A stretch of DNA of 56,162 bases, from NCBI GenBank assembly GCA_938017975.1, contig CALIKQ010000013.1:1-56162 (forward strand), given 5' to 3'. Position numbers and translations under genes: made by a program. The stretch is from an uncultured Pseudomonadales bacterium (lineage in GTDB: Bacteria > Pseudomonadota > Gammaproteobacteria > Pseudomonadales > Azotimanducaceae). The notes under the pieces are model-generated. The model was not told where the DNA came from. It did not search any database and saw nothing but the letters and a program-made list of their open reading frames with translations. Shown one piece after another: positions 8,637 through 48,863 of this stretch. Position 1 is the first letter of the stretch. The number at the start of each line of letters is the position of its first letter.

Positions 8637-9485
8637 ATGTCGTTGGAAGTCGTATCAGCTTCGTCGCTTTGGGTAGGCAATTATCGTCGGCGTATGAAAG
8701 TGTCACTCGAGCGAATGTATGAAAACGCGCTGGATTGGGCGCATCTACCCTTTTTGCACAGCAGCGCTTTCTCAAGCATTGATCTGATCGATTCGGGAGA
8801 CTGGGGCTGGCGCGCCGATTTGGGCCTGGCGCAACGGCCCGAGGGCGGAGAGCCGCCTCACATTACTTTGCAGCTTTCTTTAGATCGGACGAACCGCCGC
8901 TGGATATCAAGTACTCTTGAGGGGCCAGGTGCCGGCAGTGAAATCTGGACGCACGTGTTTGAGTTTGGTCCCCGAGACCTCGAAATCCAAGCCGATTTTT
9001 TTATCCCAGGAGTCACTGAGGTTGATAGAGCTGCAACAGGAGCAGTCTATGCCGCGCTTTATCAAGGTCTATACGACGAGGACGAGGCGATGATGCTCGA
9101 GCGTCAGAGAGCCATTGATGAGCAGGCTGGACCTGAGGAGAAAATTGAAGGGTCACAGTTAGATGACTTTGCTCTTGGGCGTGTTTCAAGCCTGGACGCT
9201 AATTTGCCTTTTGATTTTCGATACGAGGGCCAACCGTGGCGTTTGATCAGGGATGAGGAGGCGTGGCTCGTTTATACGTTGACCTGTCCACATCTTCTTG
9301 GGAGTTTCAAGGACGCGGTCATTGAATCAGGCACTGTGACCTGTCCATGGCACGGCTACCGCTTTAGTCTGCGGACAGGTGAGTGCCTCTCGGGCGCCGA
9401 TTGTCGATTACCCGATCCGCCGAAGGTCATTGAACGGGCAGGCTGGCTCTACATTCAAGGAATGACTGCAAATCCAGAGCCATAA
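8637..9485 (+). CDS. Rieske non-heme iron oxygenase with C-terminal Rieske domain
   Basis: A 282-residue protein. The N-terminal part has D33-x2-H36-x4-H41, the mononuclear-iron motif of Rieske oxygenase alpha subunits. A DED-x(5)-E-x-Q segment around D149 matches the third-ligand region of VanA-type enzymes. The Rieske centre follows: C227-x-H229 and C246-x2-H249. Usual alpha subunits have the Rieske domain first and are 340-450 residues long, so the order is inverted and the protein compact. ATG 8637 has AAGG about 8 nt upstream; a GTG at 8619 lacks one. It probably hydroxylates or demethylates an unknown substrate and needs a separate reductase. Confidence 0.85.
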   Translation: MSLEVVSASSLWVGNYRRRMKVSLERMYENALDWAHLPFLHSSAFSSIDLIDSGDWGWRADLGLAQRPEGGEPPHITLQLSLDRTNRRWISSTLEGPGAGSEIWTHVFEFGPRDLEIQADFFIPGVTEVDRAATGAVYAALYQGLYDEDEAMMLERQRAIDEQAGPEEKIEGSQLDDFALGRVSSLDANLPFDFRYEGQPWRLIRDEEAWLVYTLTCPHLLGSFKDAVIESGTVTCPWHGYRFSLRTGECLSGADCRLPDPPKVIERAGWLYIQGMTANPEP

Positions 9486-9599
9486 CCCGGAGGACACCAG
9501 ACATCACCTAAGGTATTGAGCCCTCGAACAAGTGCGATCGAAGGCAACTCGGTCAGATTGCCAGCTCGGGTTTGATCAAGCTTCGTGCTCGCCGTGGCG

Positions 9600-10559
9600 C
9601 TACCACATTGCCACGGGATTGATGATCATCTGAACTGCACCCTTTAATTTTGCCTGCCCCAATACGAACATAAACTCGTAGACCTTTTCTCGGGCAAGAC
9701 GACCAGTATCCATGGTCTCGAGGATATAGATGCCGTTGTCCTTAAGCAGAATACTGTGCCCAAAAAACAGTTTGTCACCGGGCCCAGCAGGGACGGCTTC
9801 GAGCCCCCAAGTGTCGGCGCCGACAGCCATTGGATTGAGACCTGCCAGGTATGATGCAGCCTCATTGCTAATGCCGGGAATTGTAGAACCCCACTCTTCT
9901 GGATTGCTCTTGAGCTTTGCATCGGTCCAGCCCGTGTGCAACAAAATGACATCTCCGGTTTTAAAAGCAATCGATTGCGCCTTAGCGGCGCTTTTAATGT
10001 CATCCGAGGTAATGACCTGGCCTGCAGCCAAAGCATTGACGTTGAAGTGCTGGGTCATGTCCAGCAGGATGCCTCGTCCTATTAAAGGTGGCACTTGATG
10101 AGTGCCAAGTTTGGTGAGGCCTGTAATTTGAGCAAAATCTTTGCCTTGATTACAGTTATAAAAGAGGTTGTCCTCGCCAAGATGACCGAGGCCATCAAGT
10201 TGTGGTCCTGTTCCAAGCCACATCTGAACAAGGTCATCATTGTAGGACATCGGCCATCCATAGGATTCCGTAGTGTCGACGCCGAGTTGTTGACCTGGCT
10301 GGACAACTTGCAATTGCGTGTACCTGGGCGGAAAAGCCGGCATGCCTGGCTCGATCACGATACCTAGGCCGTGGCTTTCGCCAAGTTTGACCAGCTGCGT
10401 GGCTGCTAAGATTTGTTGGGGATTGACGTAGTTGGCAGCACCAATCTCATCAGTGGCTCCCCATTTTGAAGGTTGACAGTGATCATCGGCGGTGACTTCA
10501 AAAGAAAGTCCAAAGAACAATAGGACTATCGGCCAAGCTCTGTGGGTTCGGTATTGCAT
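9600..10559 (-). CDS. Exported cyclase-family (kynurenine formamidase-like) hydrolase
   Basis: A 319-residue protein with a signal peptide (hydrophobic residues 9-20, then ADDH). The mature protein fits the metal-dependent cyclase/formamidase family (PF04199). It has an N-terminal WGATDEIGAAN segment, QLDGLGHL with D122 and H126 in place of the HxGTHxD zinc motif, a GRGILLDM strand near 175, and a C-terminal LLHTGW segment near 215. Family members hydrolyse amides or lactones such as N-formylkynurenine. Export points to a role on an external substrate. It is convergent with the Rieske oxygenase gene. Confidence 0.85.
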   Translation of the reverse strand: MQYRTHRAWPIVLLFFGLSFEVTADDHCQPSKWGATDEIGAANYVNPQQILAATQLVKLGESHGLGIVIEPGMPAFPPRYTQLQVVQPGQQLGVDTTESYGWPMSYNDDLVQMWLGTGPQLDGLGHLGEDNLFYNCNQGKDFAQITGLTKLGTHQVPPLIGRGILLDMTQHFNVNALAAGQVITSDDIKSAAKAQSIAFKTGDVILLHTGWTDAKLKSNPEEWGSTIPGISNEAASYLAGLNPMAVGADTWGLEAVPAGPGDKLFFGHSILLKDNGIYILETMDTGRLAREKVYEFMFVLGQAKLKGAVQMIINPVAMW

Positions 10560-10998
10560 GGGTATCTCCTTATGTCTATCTTGCAGTGACGCGTTGCTAA
10601 ATGGCGCGGCGCTTATAGCGTCTCGAGCGCCATTGTGCCCGTTTTGAGATCATACGCGGCGGTTCTCTCGATCATTACTGGGTGCGTTACCTTTTGCAAG
10701 CGGGCCCTTTTACCCATTGCTGGGCTGTTGATGTTCTTGGTTGCGTTGATGGAATCAATGAGGGCACAATTCCTCGGCATGAGTTTGGACTCGTCTGAGT
10801 TAAAACGTCAAAGGGCAAGACGCGATCCATTCCATGGTCTCAGGCGAGACTTCGCGTAGAGGAGGTGGTTTAAGGGCGCCGCTTTGAGAACTAAAGATAT
10901 CCGTCAAGTTTGCTGTTGAGTTCCAGGGTTTATCTGGCCAATGACCCATCATATTTTAAGAGAAGATCTCGTTTAAATAACCTAAGAAAAGGAATCCC
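10560..10998. other. Intergenic region, mostly unexplained
   Basis: About 440 bp between the divergent cyclase and ABM genes, longer than two promoters need. A GTG-initiated 74-codon plus-strand frame (10635-10859) has a central hydrophobic stretch but no ribosome-binding site and an arginine-rich tail. I do not accept it as a gene. No tRNA, repeat or strong terminator is visible. The A-rich AAGAAAAGGAAT just before 10999 is the ABM ribosome-binding site. Confidence 0.4.
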
Positions 10999-11304
10999 AT
11001 GATAGTCGTCAATGCAGTAATTGAATCATCAGAAGTAGATATCCAAATGCTTAAAACGGCAATCGCCGAAATGGAAGTTGCCAGTCGACAGGAAGCAGGG
11101 TGTTTTGATTACACCTTTTCCGTCGAGCTAAATCAGCCTGGAACCCTTCGCGTCACAGAGTGTTGGGACTCTATGGAAGCGCTGAGTCGCCATTTTACCG
11201 AGCCTCATATGGCAGCTTTTCAGGCCGCACTTGCCGCTCATCCCCCGAAATCAGTACGTGCGACATTTTATGAGGCTAACGAGGTTGTACCGCCGGGTCG
11301 CTGA
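10999..11304 (+). CDS. Antibiotic biosynthesis monooxygenase (ABM) domain protein
   Basis: A 101-residue single-domain protein with the ABM ferredoxin-like fold. The pattern is a first strand (IVVNAVIES), helix with EMEVASRQEAGCFDYTF, strand, then LRVTECWDSMEALSRHF and PHMAAFQ. YgiN-like quinol monooxygenases share this layout and work as dimers without cofactor. AAAGGAAT precedes the ATG. It stands alone; a related protein with the same fold is encoded at 22803 on the other strand. Fold assignment is secure; the substrate is unknown. Confidence 0.88.
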   Translation: MIVVNAVIESSEVDIQMLKTAIAEMEVASRQEAGCFDYTFSVELNQPGTLRVTECWDSMEALSRHFTEPHMAAFQAALAAHPPKSVRATFYEANEVVPPGR

Positions 11305-42317: not shown

Positions 42318-42582
42318 TCGAAAAATTTGCTCGTTTAGCAGCCGCTCAGCGACTGATTGAATCTCATCAGATTCGTCATAAGGGTGCGTGATTGAAAGTC
42401 CTGTCTCTGATCGAAACGAAGCTTGCCCATTGCCTGTTTAGGGTGATTGAGATTCAGCTGGCTACAGTTTAGACGAGGTTCGGCGGAACTTGCTGTCATG
42501 GGCGAAGGGCCATCAGAACTGAGACAGAAGCGATGAGATCAGTTAATATTTGGCCATCAACTCACCTTTCTGGAGAAGTCCC

Positions 42583-43725
42583 ATGGCTGAAGCTTTTATG
42601 GCCTACCCTGAACTTCGAAGTCCCTTTGAGCCCAAGGCGATCAATGCCGACAGCAGCGCTACGATTTTGTATCAAGGCAGAACGATCAAGCTTAGCAGCA
42701 GGGGTGATGGGGATGGATTATTGATCGACCCAATAGATCTTCAATCGATCAATGGATTTGAGATCAAACCTGAGGGGGTCTGTTATGAAGACCTTTGTGT
42801 GCCGCTGGATGACTCGCTGATGATTACCCAGGCGGGGCAGAAATGGTTCAGTCTGACGGCTTTGGCGGAGCTGCTGGGGCAGCCCTTTGTGGTCGATGAG
42901 GAGGCGGGGGTTTGGAGCTTTGCTGAGATCCCAGCAAAACGAGAAAATATGATGGTCAACGCGATGGCGCCTGATCTTGAACTTACTGATCGGCAAGGGA
43001 AAGTGGTTCGGATGGCAGACCTGAAAGGTAAAAAGGCGCTGATCGTAACCTGGTCCTCGTGGTGAGGCTGCTTTCTTGACGTGCCCGTGTGGCAACGCAT
43101 CTATGAAGAAATTAATGATCCCGATTTTGTATTGATCTGTGTCGCCGAAGACGTCGGTGGTGAGGCGGTTGCCGGTCCAATTTTTGATGCCGCGAACCCG
43201 ACCTACATTCAGGTCATCGATGAAGACCATCTCGTCAGCAGCGCGTTTAATTTTGTCAATGTGCCATCGGCTGCATGGATCGATGAATCAGGCAGAATTG
43301 TTCGGATAGATGAAGGCACCTATTCGATGATTCATACCTTTGGTGAAGGTGAAGAGGCGATTGCCTTCGGCAACGATGTCTATGAGCCAGCACTCAAAGA
43401 TTGGATTGCCAAAGGCGGTGATAGTGCCCATGTTCAAACGGCGAAAACCGTGTCCAGCCATATTCGTCAACACTCAAGCGACCAGCAGAAGGCAGATGCA
43501 GCATTTCGGCTGGGCAACCTTTTTCGTTTGCATGGTCAAAACGATAAAGCCGATGAGTATTGGCAAATGGCCAGAGATTTAAACCCAGACAGCGTGAACT
43601 TCATTCGTCAAAATTTAACCCTGACTGAAGAGGGATCGGCGGGCGAACAATTCAGGACAATGATGGGTGAGTACGTCAGTAGCGGCAAAGACTATTATCG
43701 GCCGCTGGATATTGAGAACGTCTAG
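42583..43725 (+). CDS. Probable selenoprotein: redoxin-like protein with in-frame UGA (Sec161)
   Basis: One continuous frame of 380 codons contains a single TGA at 43063-43065. Before it is a redoxin opening (APDLELTDRQGKVVRMADL, then ALIVTWSSW); after it, without frame change, come GC, VPVWQRIYEE and VNVPSAAWID, the rest of a thioredoxin/TlpA fold. The TGA falls where the active Cys should be, giving WSSW-U161-G-C163. The N-terminal 130 residues are a separate beta-rich domain; the C-terminus has TPR-like helices. GGAGAAG precedes ATG 42583. A hairpin at 43080-43097 could serve as bacterial SECIS. An assembly error or broken gene is possible but less likely given the exact position. Confidence 0.8.
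43080..43097 (+). promoter_or_regulatory. Candidate bacterial SECIS hairpin
   Basis: A 6-bp stem (CG-TGCC with GGCA-CG, one bulged A at 43095) closes a 5-nt CGTGT loop. It starts 15 nt and its loop about 21 nt after the in-frame TGA, inside the coding region, as expected for bacterial SECIS elements that bind SelB through G/U in the loop. Such small hairpins also occur by chance. Confidence 0.5.
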
Positions 43726-43790: not shown

Positions 43791-46700
43791 ATGAGGGCTA
43801 GGAAATTATGGCCAGGCAGACACGTTAGGCAAGGAATGTTTGGAGATGAAATCATCGTAAGCGTAAAGGCCGGTAAGCTGTCGCTTTTAGTGATGAGCCT
43901 GTTTGTGCTCACACTGCTGGTGCCGCTTCAAGGGTTCGCTGAAGAGGGTTTTACGCTGGATGTCGATGGAGACGGCGCGCAAACCCCTTTGACAGATGGT
44001 CTGTTGGTAATTCGCCATCTTTTTGGTTTTACTGGCGATCCTTTGAGTCAGGGGGCGGTCAATAGCAGCGGCACCCGTACCGATTCGGCAGCAATTACGC
44101 TGTACTTAGACGATAACCTCGCGGCCCTAGATATTGATCAAAATGGCGAGGCGCTTCCACTGACCGACGGTTTGCTCATTATTCGTCATCTCTTTGGTTT
44201 CACAGGCGATGCCCTCGCGCAGAGCGCGACGGATCCGTTAGGCGCTCGCAAATCGAGTGACGAGATATCGGCTTACCTGAATTCTATTGCGGTCTCTGAT
44301 GCTTCATCCGGAGGATCTGTAGAGGAGCCTTCAGTCTCAGCGAAACAGTTTTTTGAAGACTCGGTATCGACCATTATTTTGGCGAATTGTGCGGGTTGTC
44401 ATAAATCAGGCGGCAGCGCTCAGGGCACGCCGCTACGCTATATCAACGGCTCTGACGATGCAGCTCTGACCCAAAATTTCAATACTTTGCGAGACTATAT
44501 TGCGTCGGGCAACGGCGCCAAACTGCTCAGCCGTGCACGGGGTGTCAGTCATGGAGGGGGGGCTGTGCTGAGCGCGAGTAGTGCAGCCTATAGCACTTTA
44601 GAAGAATTTGTTGGCTTGGTTCAATCCGAGGCCGGTATCTCGGAGATCGACAAAGATCCGGTCGTCGCCCTTCCAAGCGGTTTCTTCAAATCGTCTCGAT
44701 TACTTTCTGCGCAGGGAACCTTGCGTCGTGCGAGCATTTTGCTCTTAGGGCGGAATCCAACAGCCGAGGAGTATGGCGCGCTGTCCGATGAGTCTCAAGC
44801 GGGCCTTCGCCTTGCGCTGAAGATGCTGACAGCGGATCCAAACTTCCATCAATTTCTAACCCGCGCGGCCAACGATCGATTGCTTACTGATGCCTTTCTT
44901 GAAGGGATGCCTCTGGAGCAATCATTTATTGAGAGTAATCCTAATTATCCCATTGCTACCAATGCCTTTGTAGAGGCACAAGCAGAGGCTGGAGAGCGTT
45001 TTTTCGATTGGCCTAAGTACCGCCATTGGCGTTGGGGATTGGCTCGCGCGCCAGTTGAGCTAGTTCGTTACATTGTGGAAAACGACCGGGACTACCGCGA
45101 GGTTTTGACCGCCGACTATATGATGATGAATTACGCAGTGAATGATTTTTTAAACGGCGGCGCTGAATTCTCCCCCTCTAACACTTCGAGTCTGCCTTAT
45201 TGCCTTAAGGAACCCGATGAAGCTTGCATCGACCACCGCATTTTTAAACCCGGGGTCAATCGCGGACAGGTGCCTTTGGATGAAAAGGTGGTTTTTGAGG
45301 ATACTGAATTTCAGTCGAGGCGCATTGCGGGTCATGGCGCGTTCATTGATTACCCACACGCCGGCGTTTTAAATACGCAGGCTTTTCTGAATCGCTATCC
45401 AAGCACGGAGACAAATCGTAACCGGGCGCGCGCGCGTTGGACTTACTATCATTTTTTAGGGGTCGACATTGAAAAATCTGCACCCCGGACCACAGATCCG
45501 GTAGCCCTCGCCGATACAAATAATCCGACGCTAAAGAATCCGGCATGTACGGTTTGCCACCAGGTCTTGGATCCTGTCGCTGGTGCGTTTCAACATTTTG
45601 GCGATGTCGGATACTACAACGAATCTTGGGGAGGACTCGACGCGCTGCCGCAAACATACAAGGAGCTTCTCCCAGATCCGAGCTTAAGTCCGACGTATCG
45701 TGGCGGAGAACGGGTGATGGTTGATGGCGAGACTTTTGATCTTGTCTCAGACTTTGCCACGAGTTTAGACGCGGGAAGAATCTACTACCGAGTGTCCTTT
45801 GATAATGATGAAGGCGGCCCGGAAGGGGATCGGAACGTTTTTTATGATCGTCTGGTTGTGACTGGTCCAGATAAGGAGACGATCATTGAATTTGAATCGC
45901 TGCCAGAGGATGCAGTGACAGTTGGATGCGGCGGCATAACGTCTCAAGGTTATGGTCAATATTGCGGAGGTTATGTGCTTGTGCCCATCGACCTCAACGA
46001 ATCTGGAGATCACCTTTTTGAGCTTCACGCAAAAGGTGAACAGTACGGGGATTCTGACGTCCAGCTCACGGTGTCGGTTGACACCGATGGCCAAAGCTTG
46101 GATGCGCTTGGCTACCAAAGGGGAGATACTTGGTATAAAGATATGCGGGAGCCTGGTTATTTAACCGGCAGCGCCCCAGATCAAAGCGACAGTCTGCAAT
46201 GGGTCGCAGAGCAGCTGGTTGCTGATCCGTGGTTTGCTGAAGCGTCTGTAAAATTTTGGTGGCCAGCGCTGATGGGGCTAGAGGTGGCGGCAGCACCAGA
46301 GGTTGAAGACGATGTTGGTTTTCAGGAAAAGCTTGCGCTGTTTGAAGCCCAAAATGATTATGTAACAAGTCTTGGCGCACGGTTTGCAGAAGGCATCGAG
46401 GGAGGCGCGCCCTTCAATGGCCGTGATCTTATCGTGGAGTTGTTGCTCAGTCCTTGGTTTAGAGCGGACGCGGATGATGCGTCGCCAAATTCATTCGGCG
46501 ATGTTGGCACCCGAAGATTGCTGACCCCAGAGGAGTTAGAGTCTAAATTCTATGGGCTCTCCCAATTTTATTGGGGCAGCGATGATTCCTTCTCCGAGTG
46601 GCAATTCGATGGCCGTTACTCCCACCTCACCGATCAAGCCAATATTTTGTATGGTGGGATAGATTCACGGAACGTCACGCTTCGTGCTAGCCAGATGACA

Positions 46701-47543
46701 CCAGTGATGTTTAACATCGCTGAAAAAATGGCGCTCCAAACTGCCTGTGAAATCGTATCCCGTGATTTTGAGCGGCCAAAGTCAGCGCGTCTGTTGTTCA
46801 CGGAAGCAAATGCTCAGACAACTCCTTTCAATCGTTTTTTGAGTCAGGCCTCGGGTTCAGCCAGCTCGACAAGTTTTGAGGTGGCCATTCAACATGAGGC
46901 CCAGCTAGAAGTGGGCTCAATTAACATTGCGGTTTCTTATGTGAATGACTATTACTCTGAGACCTTGGGTGATCGGAATGCCCGATTTGATCGATTGATG
47001 GTGTCGGGACCAGATGGGTCAGAAATGACGATCGAGTTCGAAACGCCGCCAGAGGGAAGCAAAATAACGGGCTGCGGCCACAGCGCAGAAACCTACCACC
47101 AGCTTAGCTGCAACGGCACCATTTCGTTGCCTTTTGAAATTACCGTGGCAGGCAACCATGTGTTCACGCTAGAAGCGGCGGGGGAGCAGGCAGGGGATGA
47201 TGCCGTTGCACTTGAGCTCGCTTTGATTGAAACCTCAACAACCGAACAAGTGGGCATGTTAGAGCTCAAGGCACAATTGGGACTGATGCATTGGAAGCTA
47301 TTGGGGGAGCCCGAAAGCGGCAACGAGACTGAGATCGATGCCAGCTACGCATTACTCTTAGAGAGCTTAGATCGCTTGGCAGAACAGGAAAATCAAAGTT
47401 TAACTAACTGGCCTTACCAGTCCTGCTCGAATCACGATTGGCGAGGGGAGGCTCTTAATCTTGCAGATAGTAATGGGATGAAGGGCGCGTGGATTAGTGT
47501 GCTCACGTATCTGATGACGGACTTTAGGTTTCTTCATGAGTAA
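43791..47543 (+). CDS. Giant exported heme protein with dockerin-like repeats (DUF1592/DUF1588-type)
   Basis: A 1250-residue exported protein. A hydrophobic signal lies at about 29-49. Two EF-hand/dockerin-like units start near L56 and L113, sharing PLTDGLL then IRHLFGFTGD. A c-heme site C200-x2-C203-H204 and a second, C586-x2-C589-H590 in a DUF1588-like CTVCHQVLDP segment, follow. Two related beta-sandwich modules at about 663-765 and 1040-1145 share FDRLMVSGP or YDRLVVTGP and a GEQ(Y/A)GD motif, as in calcium-dependent carbohydrate-binding modules of PSD1/DUF1592 proteins. GGAG is 8 nt before ATG 43791; ATG 43836 would also keep the signal. It is paired with the DUF1501 gene 6 nt downstream. 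Confidence 0.8.
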   Translation: MRARKLWPGRHVRQGMFGDEIIVSVKAGKLSLLVMSLFVLTLLVPLQGFAEEGFTLDVDGDGAQTPLTDGLLVIRHLFGFTGDPLSQGAVNSSGTRTDSAAITLYLDDNLAALDIDQNGEALPLTDGLLIIRHLFGFTGDALAQSATDPLGARKSSDEISAYLNSIAVSDASSGGSVEEPSVSAKQFFEDSVSTIILANCAGCHKSGGSAQGTPLRYINGSDDAALTQNFNTLRDYIASGNGAKLLSRARGVSHGGGAVLSASSAAYSTLEEFVGLVQSEAGISEIDKDPVVALPSGFFKSSRLLSAQGTLRRASILLLGRNPTAEEYGALSDESQAGLRLALKMLTADPNFHQFLTRAANDRLLTDAFLEGMPLEQSFIESNPNYPIATNAFVEAQAEAGERFFDWPKYRHWRWGLARAPVELVRYIVENDRDYREVLTADYMMMNYAVNDFLNGGAEFSPSNTSSLPYCLKEPDEACIDHRIFKPGVNRGQVPLDEKVVFEDTEFQSRRIAGHGAFIDYPHAGVLNTQAFLNRYPSTETNRNRARARWTYYHFLGVDIEKSAPRTTDPVALADTNNPTLKNPACTVCHQVLDPVAGAFQHFGDVGYYNESWGGLDALPQTYKELLPDPSLSPTYRGGERVMVDGETFDLVSDFATSLDAGRIYYRVSFDNDEGGPEGDRNVFYDRLVVTGPDKETIIEFESLPEDAVTVGCGGITSQGYGQYCGGYVLVPIDLNESGDHLFELHAKGEQYGDSDVQLTVSVDTDGQSLDALGYQRGDTWYKDMREPGYLTGSAPDQSDSLQWVAEQLVADPWFAEASVKFWWPALMGLEVAAAPEVEDDVGFQEKLALFEAQNDYVTSLGARFAEGIEGGAPFNGRDLIVELLLSPWFRADADDASPNSFGDVGTRRLLTPEELESKFYGLSQFYWGSDDSFSEWQFDGRYSHLTDQANILYGGIDSRNVTLRASQMTPVMFNIAEKMALQTACEIVSRDFERPKSARLLFTEANAQTTPFNRFLSQASGSASSTSFEVAIQHEAQLEVGSINIAVSYVNDYYSETLGDRNARFDRLMVSGPDGSEMTIEFETPPEGSKITGCGHSAETYHQLSCNGTISLPFEITVAGNHVFTLEAAGEQAGDDAVALELALIETSTTEQVGMLELKAQLGLMHWKLLGEPESGNETEIDASYALLLESLDRLAEQENQSLTNWPYQSCSNHDWRGEALNLADSNGMKGAWISVLTYLMTDFRFLHE

Positions 47544-47549
47544 TCAGCG

Positions 47550-48863
47550 ATGATGAAAAGACGAACTTTCCTCAAAACATTTGCTCAGATGGCGGCTTTG
47601 CCTTTGGTCGGGTTGCCCACCCTTTCGAGAGGCTTGATTGCTGGGGGCTATGCAGGGCCTTTACTGCTTCAGATTCAGGCTGAAGGGGGTTGGGATGTGA
47701 CCAGCTATGTTGACCCGAAAGTGAATCAGCCCGGGGAAAAAGTGATTACGAATTGGTCAAAAGGTAATGAGCCTGGGCTGGCTGGCGGGATACCCTTTGC
47801 GCCATTTGCTAACAACGCTGAGTTCTTTCAGCGACACCACAAAAAAATGTTGGTGATAAACGGCATTGATATGCAAACGAATTCGCACACGACAGGGGTA
47901 CTGCACAATTGGAGCGGCCGAAATGCTGAGGGTTTTCCCGCGTTGACCGCATTATTCTCCGCGCATCATTCGCCAGAGGCGGCAATGCCTTATCTGAATT
48001 TTGGTGGTTTTGGCGCTACCCAGAATGTCGTGCGGTTCACTCGGCTTCAGGACAATCCAGAACAGTTGGGTCGTGTGCTGGAGCCGAACCTCTCGGGCTT
48101 TCATACACCGAATCAGTACAATGATTATGAGGGACCCACTTACTTTCGCGATGCTGATGATCTGGCGTTGATTGATCGTTACCGCCAAGCCCGATTGGAT
48201 CGATTGAGCAACAGCGATAATCAATTAGCCAGACAAGCGAATAACCTTTATGCCTATAAGGCTGCCTTACGTGGTCGTAAATCGCTCGCAGAATTTGCGC
48301 CCTATCTCCCCTCGGGAGACGCGGTTATCCAGCCGGTCGAGGGCCTGCAAAATTTGAAGGGTCAAGTCCAGTTGGTTAGTGCAGCATTTAGAGCAGGGGT
48401 CTCCAGCGCTGCAGACGTTCATTTAAATGGCTTTGATACCCATGATGACCATGACCAAATGCACACCGTGCAGCTGAGCTACTTGAATGAATCTATCGAT
48501 TTGGTTTGGCAATTGGCCGAGGAGGGCGGCTACGCCGATCGATTAACCGTCGTCGTCGGCTCTGATTTTTCAAGAACACCTCACTACAATGAGCAAGATG
48601 GTAAGGACCATTGGCCAATCGGGTCGGTGATTGTGATGCAATCGGATCCCAGTTGGGGCGATCGTGTGCTTGGTAAGACAGATGCAATGCAAAATGCTTT
48701 GCCGATTGATCCACAGCGGCTGGTGGAAGATGAAGTCAACGGCAGCGTGATCTATCCAAAACATGTGCATAAGGCACTCCGCGGCTTACTTGGCCTTAAC
48801 GACTCCGTGCTCGATCAGCGCTTTGCATTCAACAATACCGAAGCATTTGAATTTTTCTCCTAG
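47550..48863 (+). CDS. DUF1501-family exported protein
   Basis: A 437-residue protein with a Tat-type signal (KRRTFLK, then a hydrophobic stretch to about 32), so it is probably exported folded. The rest matches DUF1501 (sulfatase/alkaline-phosphatase-like fold): LLLQIQAEGGWD near 36-47, INGIDMQTNSHTTG near 110-123, and VNGFDTH-like LNGFDTHDDHDQ and VVGSDFSRTPHYN further on. DUF1501 genes are usual partners of DUF1592-type heme proteins; function is not settled. It follows the giant gene by 6 nt and is surely co-transcribed. No clear T-rich hairpin follows. Confidence 0.88.
   Translation: MMKRRTFLKTFAQMAALPLVGLPTLSRGLIAGGYAGPLLLQIQAEGGWDVTSYVDPKVNQPGEKVITNWSKGNEPGLAGGIPFAPFANNAEFFQRHHKKMLVINGIDMQTNSHTTGVLHNWSGRNAEGFPALTALFSAHHSPEAAMPYLNFGGFGATQNVVRFTRLQDNPEQLGRVLEPNLSGFHTPNQYNDYEGPTYFRDADDLALIDRYRQARLDRLSNSDNQLARQANNLYAYKAALRGRKSLAEFAPYLPSGDAVIQPVEGLQNLKGQVQLVSAAFRAGVSSAADVHLNGFDTHDDHDQMHTVQLSYLNESIDLVWQLAEEGGYADRLTVVVGSDFSRTPHYNEQDGKDHWPIGSVIVMQSDPSWGDRVLGKTDAMQNALPIDPQRLVEDEVNGSVIYPKHVHKALRGLLGLNDSVLDQRFAFNNTEAFEFFS

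Follow-up and report, generated by a model that had tools for sequence, protein, structure and literature searches.

The gene described in Table 1 is best explained, taken as a whole, as that of a 380-residue selenoprotein with selenocysteine (Sec) inserted at an in-frame UGA, a prediction from sequence to which we assign a probability of about 95%. It lies in a 56,162-nucleotide stretch of DNA from an uncultured Pseudomonadales bacterium (the window). The evidence consists of the location of the UGA at a site occupied by Cys in a homologue, the coding constraint that persists past the UGA, a conserved hairpin just after it, and the Sec machinery found in congeners. Redoxin selenoproteins with a UGC motif (U, Sec) are a known kind; this gene is a further subfamily of them, and a well-conserved one. 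An ordinary open reading frame search cuts such genes in two at the UGA, as happened here.

Table 1. Coordinates in the window of the predicted selenoprotein gene and its features
Feature	Position	Strand	Remark
UGC redoxin selenoprotein CDS	42583..43725	+	380 residues if UGA is read through
N-terminal Cys67 and Cys72 (codons 67-72), KPEGxC-x4-C motif	42781..42798	+	
Redoxin/ResA-like domain, residues 126-245	42958..43317	+	Pfam; Foldseek
In-frame TGA, codon 161, Sec at catalytic Cys position	43063..43065	+	predicted from sequence
Cys163 codon, partner in U-G-C	43069..43071	+	
Putative bacterial SECIS hairpin	43079..43098	+	loop CGTGT at 43086-43090
TPR-like segment, residues 304-336	43492..43590	+	sub-cut-off Pfam TPR; model helices

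The frame starts with ATG at 42583, ends with TAG at 43723-43725 and contains a single in-frame TGA, which is preceded by VTWSSW and followed by GCFLDVPVWQ. The original prediction, of a frame open except for one TGA between WSSW and GC, was thus borne out. The redoxin-like identity that it proposed also held, since the Pfam families Redoxin (PF08534, 32 bits, gathering cut-off 26.6) and AhpC-TSA (30 bits, cut-off 26) both matched over their cut-offs, with a domain at residues 125-245 that spans the TGA. Pfam TPR matches at residues 304-337 were weak and under the cut-off. In the best of five AlphaFold models (mean pLDDT 78.6, pTM 0.80; pLDDT 49 to 65 in the others) the parts before and after the UGA are predicted to join in one thioredoxin-type domain, and the TPR-like segment is modeled as helices. 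Cys67 and Cys72 are invariant in alignment A1 (24 sequences) and were found in all nine WAxxUGC-type sequences compared; KPEG is present in eight of the nine, and the form with Cys at codon 161 has REEG. When the N-terminal domain was searched alone against Pfam, no family was found at E up to 1, and the idea that it resembles the copper amine oxidase N-domain gained no support from this search. The architecture had been called unusual, a description that did not survive comparison; it is common to the other WAxxUGC-type proteins compared and is nothing special to this gene. The protein is probably cytoplasmic, with no signal peptide apparent by eye.

Codon 161 was followed in two overlapping sets of relatives. 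Within the family, 206 genomes were searched, with 90 matches in 72 of them (E up to 1e-50), and among the 88 that cover codon 161, TGA was found in 87 and Cys in one. The Cys exception (L026, on contig C130 of genome G018) has TGC at this codon, a WASWCGC motif and one continuous frame. A scan of GTDB genome contigs identified 29 loci. The motif is covered in 28, every one of which has WSSWUGC with TGA; at least 24 of these 28 loci correspond to genes of the 206-genome set, so that the counts are not additive. The exact location of TGA at the motif was confirmed in the loci read individually, and the remaining matches were assigned by the stop count of the search. Loci L091 to L096 did not match the motif pattern. 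In a further set of 58 genomes, composed of the source genome and its relatives, TGA-bearing homologues were present in 22. The stop-free matches of that search, which were not read individually, were mostly shorter redoxin-domain matches at ~21-36% identity, with exceptions such as short 69-70% fragments in which codon 161 is not covered. According to their record titles, the GTDB loci are gammaproteobacterial (one is named only as 'Proteobacteria') and come from metagenome-assembled genomes, several of them marine, and from one isolate, 'Candidatus Litorirhabdus singularis' IMCC14734 (L109).

The nucleotide differences between orthologues have the pattern of a translated sequence on both sides of the TGA. 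Third codon positions dominate the differences in both halves of the gene against each of the four orthologues compared (of 28). Against L101, for example, the differences at codon positions 1, 2 and 3 numbered 38, 20 and 90 before the TGA and 30, 13 and 114 after it, which are third-position shares of 90/148 and 114/157. This bias on both sides, together with TGA in 87 of the 88 covering matches, argues that the TGA at codon 161 is not a chance stop. The expectations of the original prediction, that homologues would have Cys or Sec at this codon and that a random stop would be unlikely there, agree with these counts and with the constraint that continues past the TGA. Two damaged copies were seen as well. 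One metagenome-assembled genome, present twice under L014 and L115, has a scrambled stretch at codons 184-205, where codon 189 is a TAG, with intact codons to either side, and G034 (L025) carries a broken copy of the UGA gene.

A putative SECIS hairpin is located directly after the UGA, with 20 bases between the UGA and the loop. Codon usage was compared among 31 non-redundant orthologues (39 before filtering at 97%). The codons at +6, +7 and +8 after the UGA are GTG, CCC and GTG without variation (n = 31; CCC in the 30 with Pro). At 108 other conserved degenerate codons, by comparison, the normalised codon entropy averaged 0.82, and one of these codons (+14) is invariant too. The entropy at codons +4 to +11 is below that of the rest (p = 2.7e-4), and the upper stem and loop of the hairpin coincide with the invariant codons. 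In 16 diverged homologues, standard pairs were found in all 96 hairpin cells; when the partner was slid by one to three bases, the paired cells fell to 27-66%. At one pair, CTG..CAG (Leu, Gln) is replaced by TTG..CAA in L023 and L086, which belong to two different motif classes. Both changes are synonymous, and therefore the co-change is inexplicable by the protein. Among 28 close orthologues, 93.9% of the hairpin cells are paired, and one pair is doubly changed in four sequences. The covariation score, the paired cells and the doubly changed cells were each matched by only 1 of 500 shuffles in both alignment sets. The other two of the five covariation measures were no better than shuffles: as many doubly changed pairs arose in 60/500 (A3) and 390/500 (A2), and as many pair types in 332/500 (A3) and 500/500 (A2).

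The bacterial SECIS model, as given in the review PMC13188914, has a loop of 3-9 nt that carries a G at its first or second position, a stem of 4-16 bp, a spacing of 16-37 nt and an energy of -7.5 kcal/mol or lower. The loop, stem length and spacing of the hairpin described here fall within these limits, and its G is at the second loop position. The window copy alone is weak (-5.8 kcal/mol) and does not reach the energy of that model; the minimum-energy fold of 48 bases in this copy is another structure, at -8.1 kcal/mol. Across the 28 orthologues, the hairpin energy was -7.1 to -7.6 in 18, -3.8 to -4.8 in eight and -6.1 in one. An Rfam search of the window at gathering cut-offs returned nothing. 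Two characteristics of bacterial selenoprotein genes, an in-frame UGA at the Cys/Sec position of homologues and a SECIS hairpin just after it, were both found, the latter with the exception of its energy in the window copy.

The source genome (G000; 96.5% complete, 79 contigs) was inspected for the Sec machinery, which the original prediction had named as a check and whose absence it would have taken as a refutation. Part of it was present, so that this refutation applies, nominally, to half. A tRNA-Sec was located by ARAGORN at G000:C24:7251-7341, with an Infernal score of 45.8 bits, just under the Rfam value of 47, and the sequence of its 91 bases is exactly the same in G000, G003 and G007. 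A SelD domain was found at G000:C24:8928-9833, within a 754-residue open frame. The remaining part was missing from the assembly, in which neither PF03841 nor TIGR00474 detected SelA, and SelB gave no match over the cut-off. G003, which has the UGA gene, likewise had no SelA with TIGR00474 and no SelB over the cut-off. The congeners G005, G007 and G010 have the UGA gene and selA directly followed by selB. In the 58 genomes, selA was detected in 20 of the 22 with a TGA homologue versus 15 of the 36 without one (Fisher p = 1.6e-4, a value that ignores relatedness); two of these 35 selA genomes are below the cut-off. The probable selenoprotein of the original prediction is therefore supported by UGA or Cys at codon 161, by the SECIS-like hairpin with its synonymous conservation, and by tRNA-Sec and SelD.

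Some side observations concern these genes. The SelD domain of G000 is the C-terminal part of a long frame (L065, positions 8814-11051, on contig C24) and is apparently fused to a second domain; among the 20 SelD matches over the cut-off, 18 sit in open frames of >700 residues. No tRNA-Sec was found near selD in 9-14 kb of G005, G010 and G012, congeners that also have the UGA gene. The sequence at 7372-7460 of L158 is tRNA-Lys (ctt) according to ARAGORN versus tRNA-Sec at 49.8 bits according to Infernal, a form that is easily missed.

The absence of SelA and SelB permits a different reading, in which the protein is ancestrally a selenoprotein but selA and selB were lost here, the UGA now acting as a stop or being read through (e.g., as Cys or Trp). 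In its favor, neither G000 nor G003 has SelA or an over-cut-off SelB. Moreover, the G005 neighbors of selA-selB, named by eye as LolC-like, D-cysteine desulfhydrase-like and permease genes, are poorly represented: for the first two, the matches in G000 and G003 are all distant (<=36% identity), and the permease has none in either. One of the neighbor searches was run without a positive control. However, past the LolC-like gene, 20 kb of G005 align collinearly with G000:C9:65455-81166. Contig C9 has a length of 81170 bases and stops 4 bases after the final G005 match, on the selA-selB side. By G005 gene order, selA would lie ~12 kb further on, past the end of that contig. Since contig C9 ends where the G005 order leads to selA-selB, an assembly gap is the likely cause of the absence in G000, although its position is fixed from one side only: for the other flank, 9 kb of G005 gave a match in G010 and none in G000 or G003. 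In G003, which shares only two short distant matches with the 20 kb stretch and for which no contig end was located, an assembly gap is a possible cause. The tRNA-Sec, letter-identical in G000, G003 and the selAB-bearing G007, and the retention of SelD also speak against the loss of Sec decoding. On the strength of the contig end and of the tRNA-Sec identity with G007, such a loss was set aside as very improbable.

Two explanations without any Sec are less probable still. A lone TGA in a frame that is open elsewhere can have the appearance of a nonsense mutation or a sequencing error truncating an ordinary Cys redoxin, but its presence in 87 of the 88 covering matches and the third-position-biased divergence past it refute this explanation, to which we give practically no weight. 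Two separate proteins, one ending at the UGA and another starting downstream at GTG 43081, would agree with the open reading frame list, in which 42550-43065 and 43081-43725 are separate frames. Nonetheless, the UGA falls inside a single Pfam redoxin domain, the homologue with Cys reads as one uninterrupted frame, and the predicted model puts both parts in one thioredoxin-type domain; two products are, therefore, scarcely credible. Insertion of Sec at codon 161 is the reading retained in what follows.

The closest named family is NCBIfam NF041054 (WAxxUGC_long), the 'ResA-like WAxxUGC motif-containing protein', which has the UGC at the same place, an N-terminal Cys-x4-Cys, a redoxin domain and a TPR-like tail. 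Its motif is WAPYUGC as opposed to WSSWUGC in the protein described here, which scored 241.2 bits, below the NF041054 cut-off of 300. Scores of 487 and 472 bits were obtained for the paralogues L087 and L089, 306 for the Cys form L026, 258 and 284 for the WASWUGC forms L020 and L024, and 229 for the orthologue L109. Because its 241 bits are under the cut-off, the protein is placed, on profile scores, as a sister subfamily of NF041054. It also scored below the cut-off of the ResA family NF002854 (50.4 bits, curated cut-off 170). The 50 Foldseek matches listed for the central domain are mostly of thioredoxin, ResA and TlpA types, with target-normalised TM of 0.66-0.76 for the ResA entries among them; ResA and TlpA thiol-disulfide oxidoreductases (e.g., 1su9 and 3c73) share the fold type over this domain. 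While ResA has CxxC, the protein described here has U-G-C, with one residue in between, as well as an extra N-terminal domain and a TPR-like tail; inspection by eye showed neither a signal nor an anchor.

Relatives by description appear in two published sources. The review PMC13188914 has an entry named 'UGC-containing TlpA disulfide reductase family protein', and the 2008 GOS survey (PMC2398784) reports 46 'Prx-like (UGC-containing)' selenoproteins and 855 Cys homologues. As described, these entries likewise have Sec in a UGC motif of a TlpA or AhpC-TSA type redoxin. A literature search for the family name or motif identified no paper, and nothing on the WAxxUGC family beyond that review. 'Ca. 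Litorirhabdus singularis' IMCC14734 is described as a pure culture in PMC10100682, the main text of which contains 'seleno' 0 times. If the strain has selA-selB, its culture makes the Sec prediction directly testable.

In the proposed mechanism, SelB carrying Sec-tRNA-Sec would bind the hairpin, and selenocysteine would be inserted at codon 161. Within the ResA/TlpA-like domain, U161 and C163 would then form a U-x-C redox pair, alternating as selenenylsulfide and selenol, that could reduce or exchange disulfides or reduce a peroxide. Cys67 and Cys72 of the N-terminal domain are likely a second thiol pair in the same chain, with a relay between the two as a possibility, and the TPR-like tail is likely a docking surface. 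We tentatively hypothesized that the WSSWUGC proteins form a cytoplasmic enzyme class of their own, with electrons exchanged within one chain between U161-C163 and C67-C72, a proposal that we consider rather unlikely. If true, gammaproteobacteria would have in these proteins a disulfide relay that depends on selenium and is complete in itself.

The gene neighborhood was compared among the loci, several of the 28 ending close to the UGA gene. The two halves of the gene were each recovered in 26 of the 28 loci and in the window. The best-shared flanking cluster, of the short-chain dehydrogenase type by eye, was present in only seven loci and the window, and therefore the gene context gives no function. 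Directly downstream of the gene, at 43791-48863 of the window, a 1250-residue DUF1588 (PSCyt3) protein with dockerin-like repeats by eye is followed by a DUF1501 protein. Among the 28 loci, only L120 has this pair downstream of its UGA gene, likewise with the DUF1588 protein first. In G005, an open frame at 10660-11193 of L098 contains a run of near-identical MLETT-type repeats.
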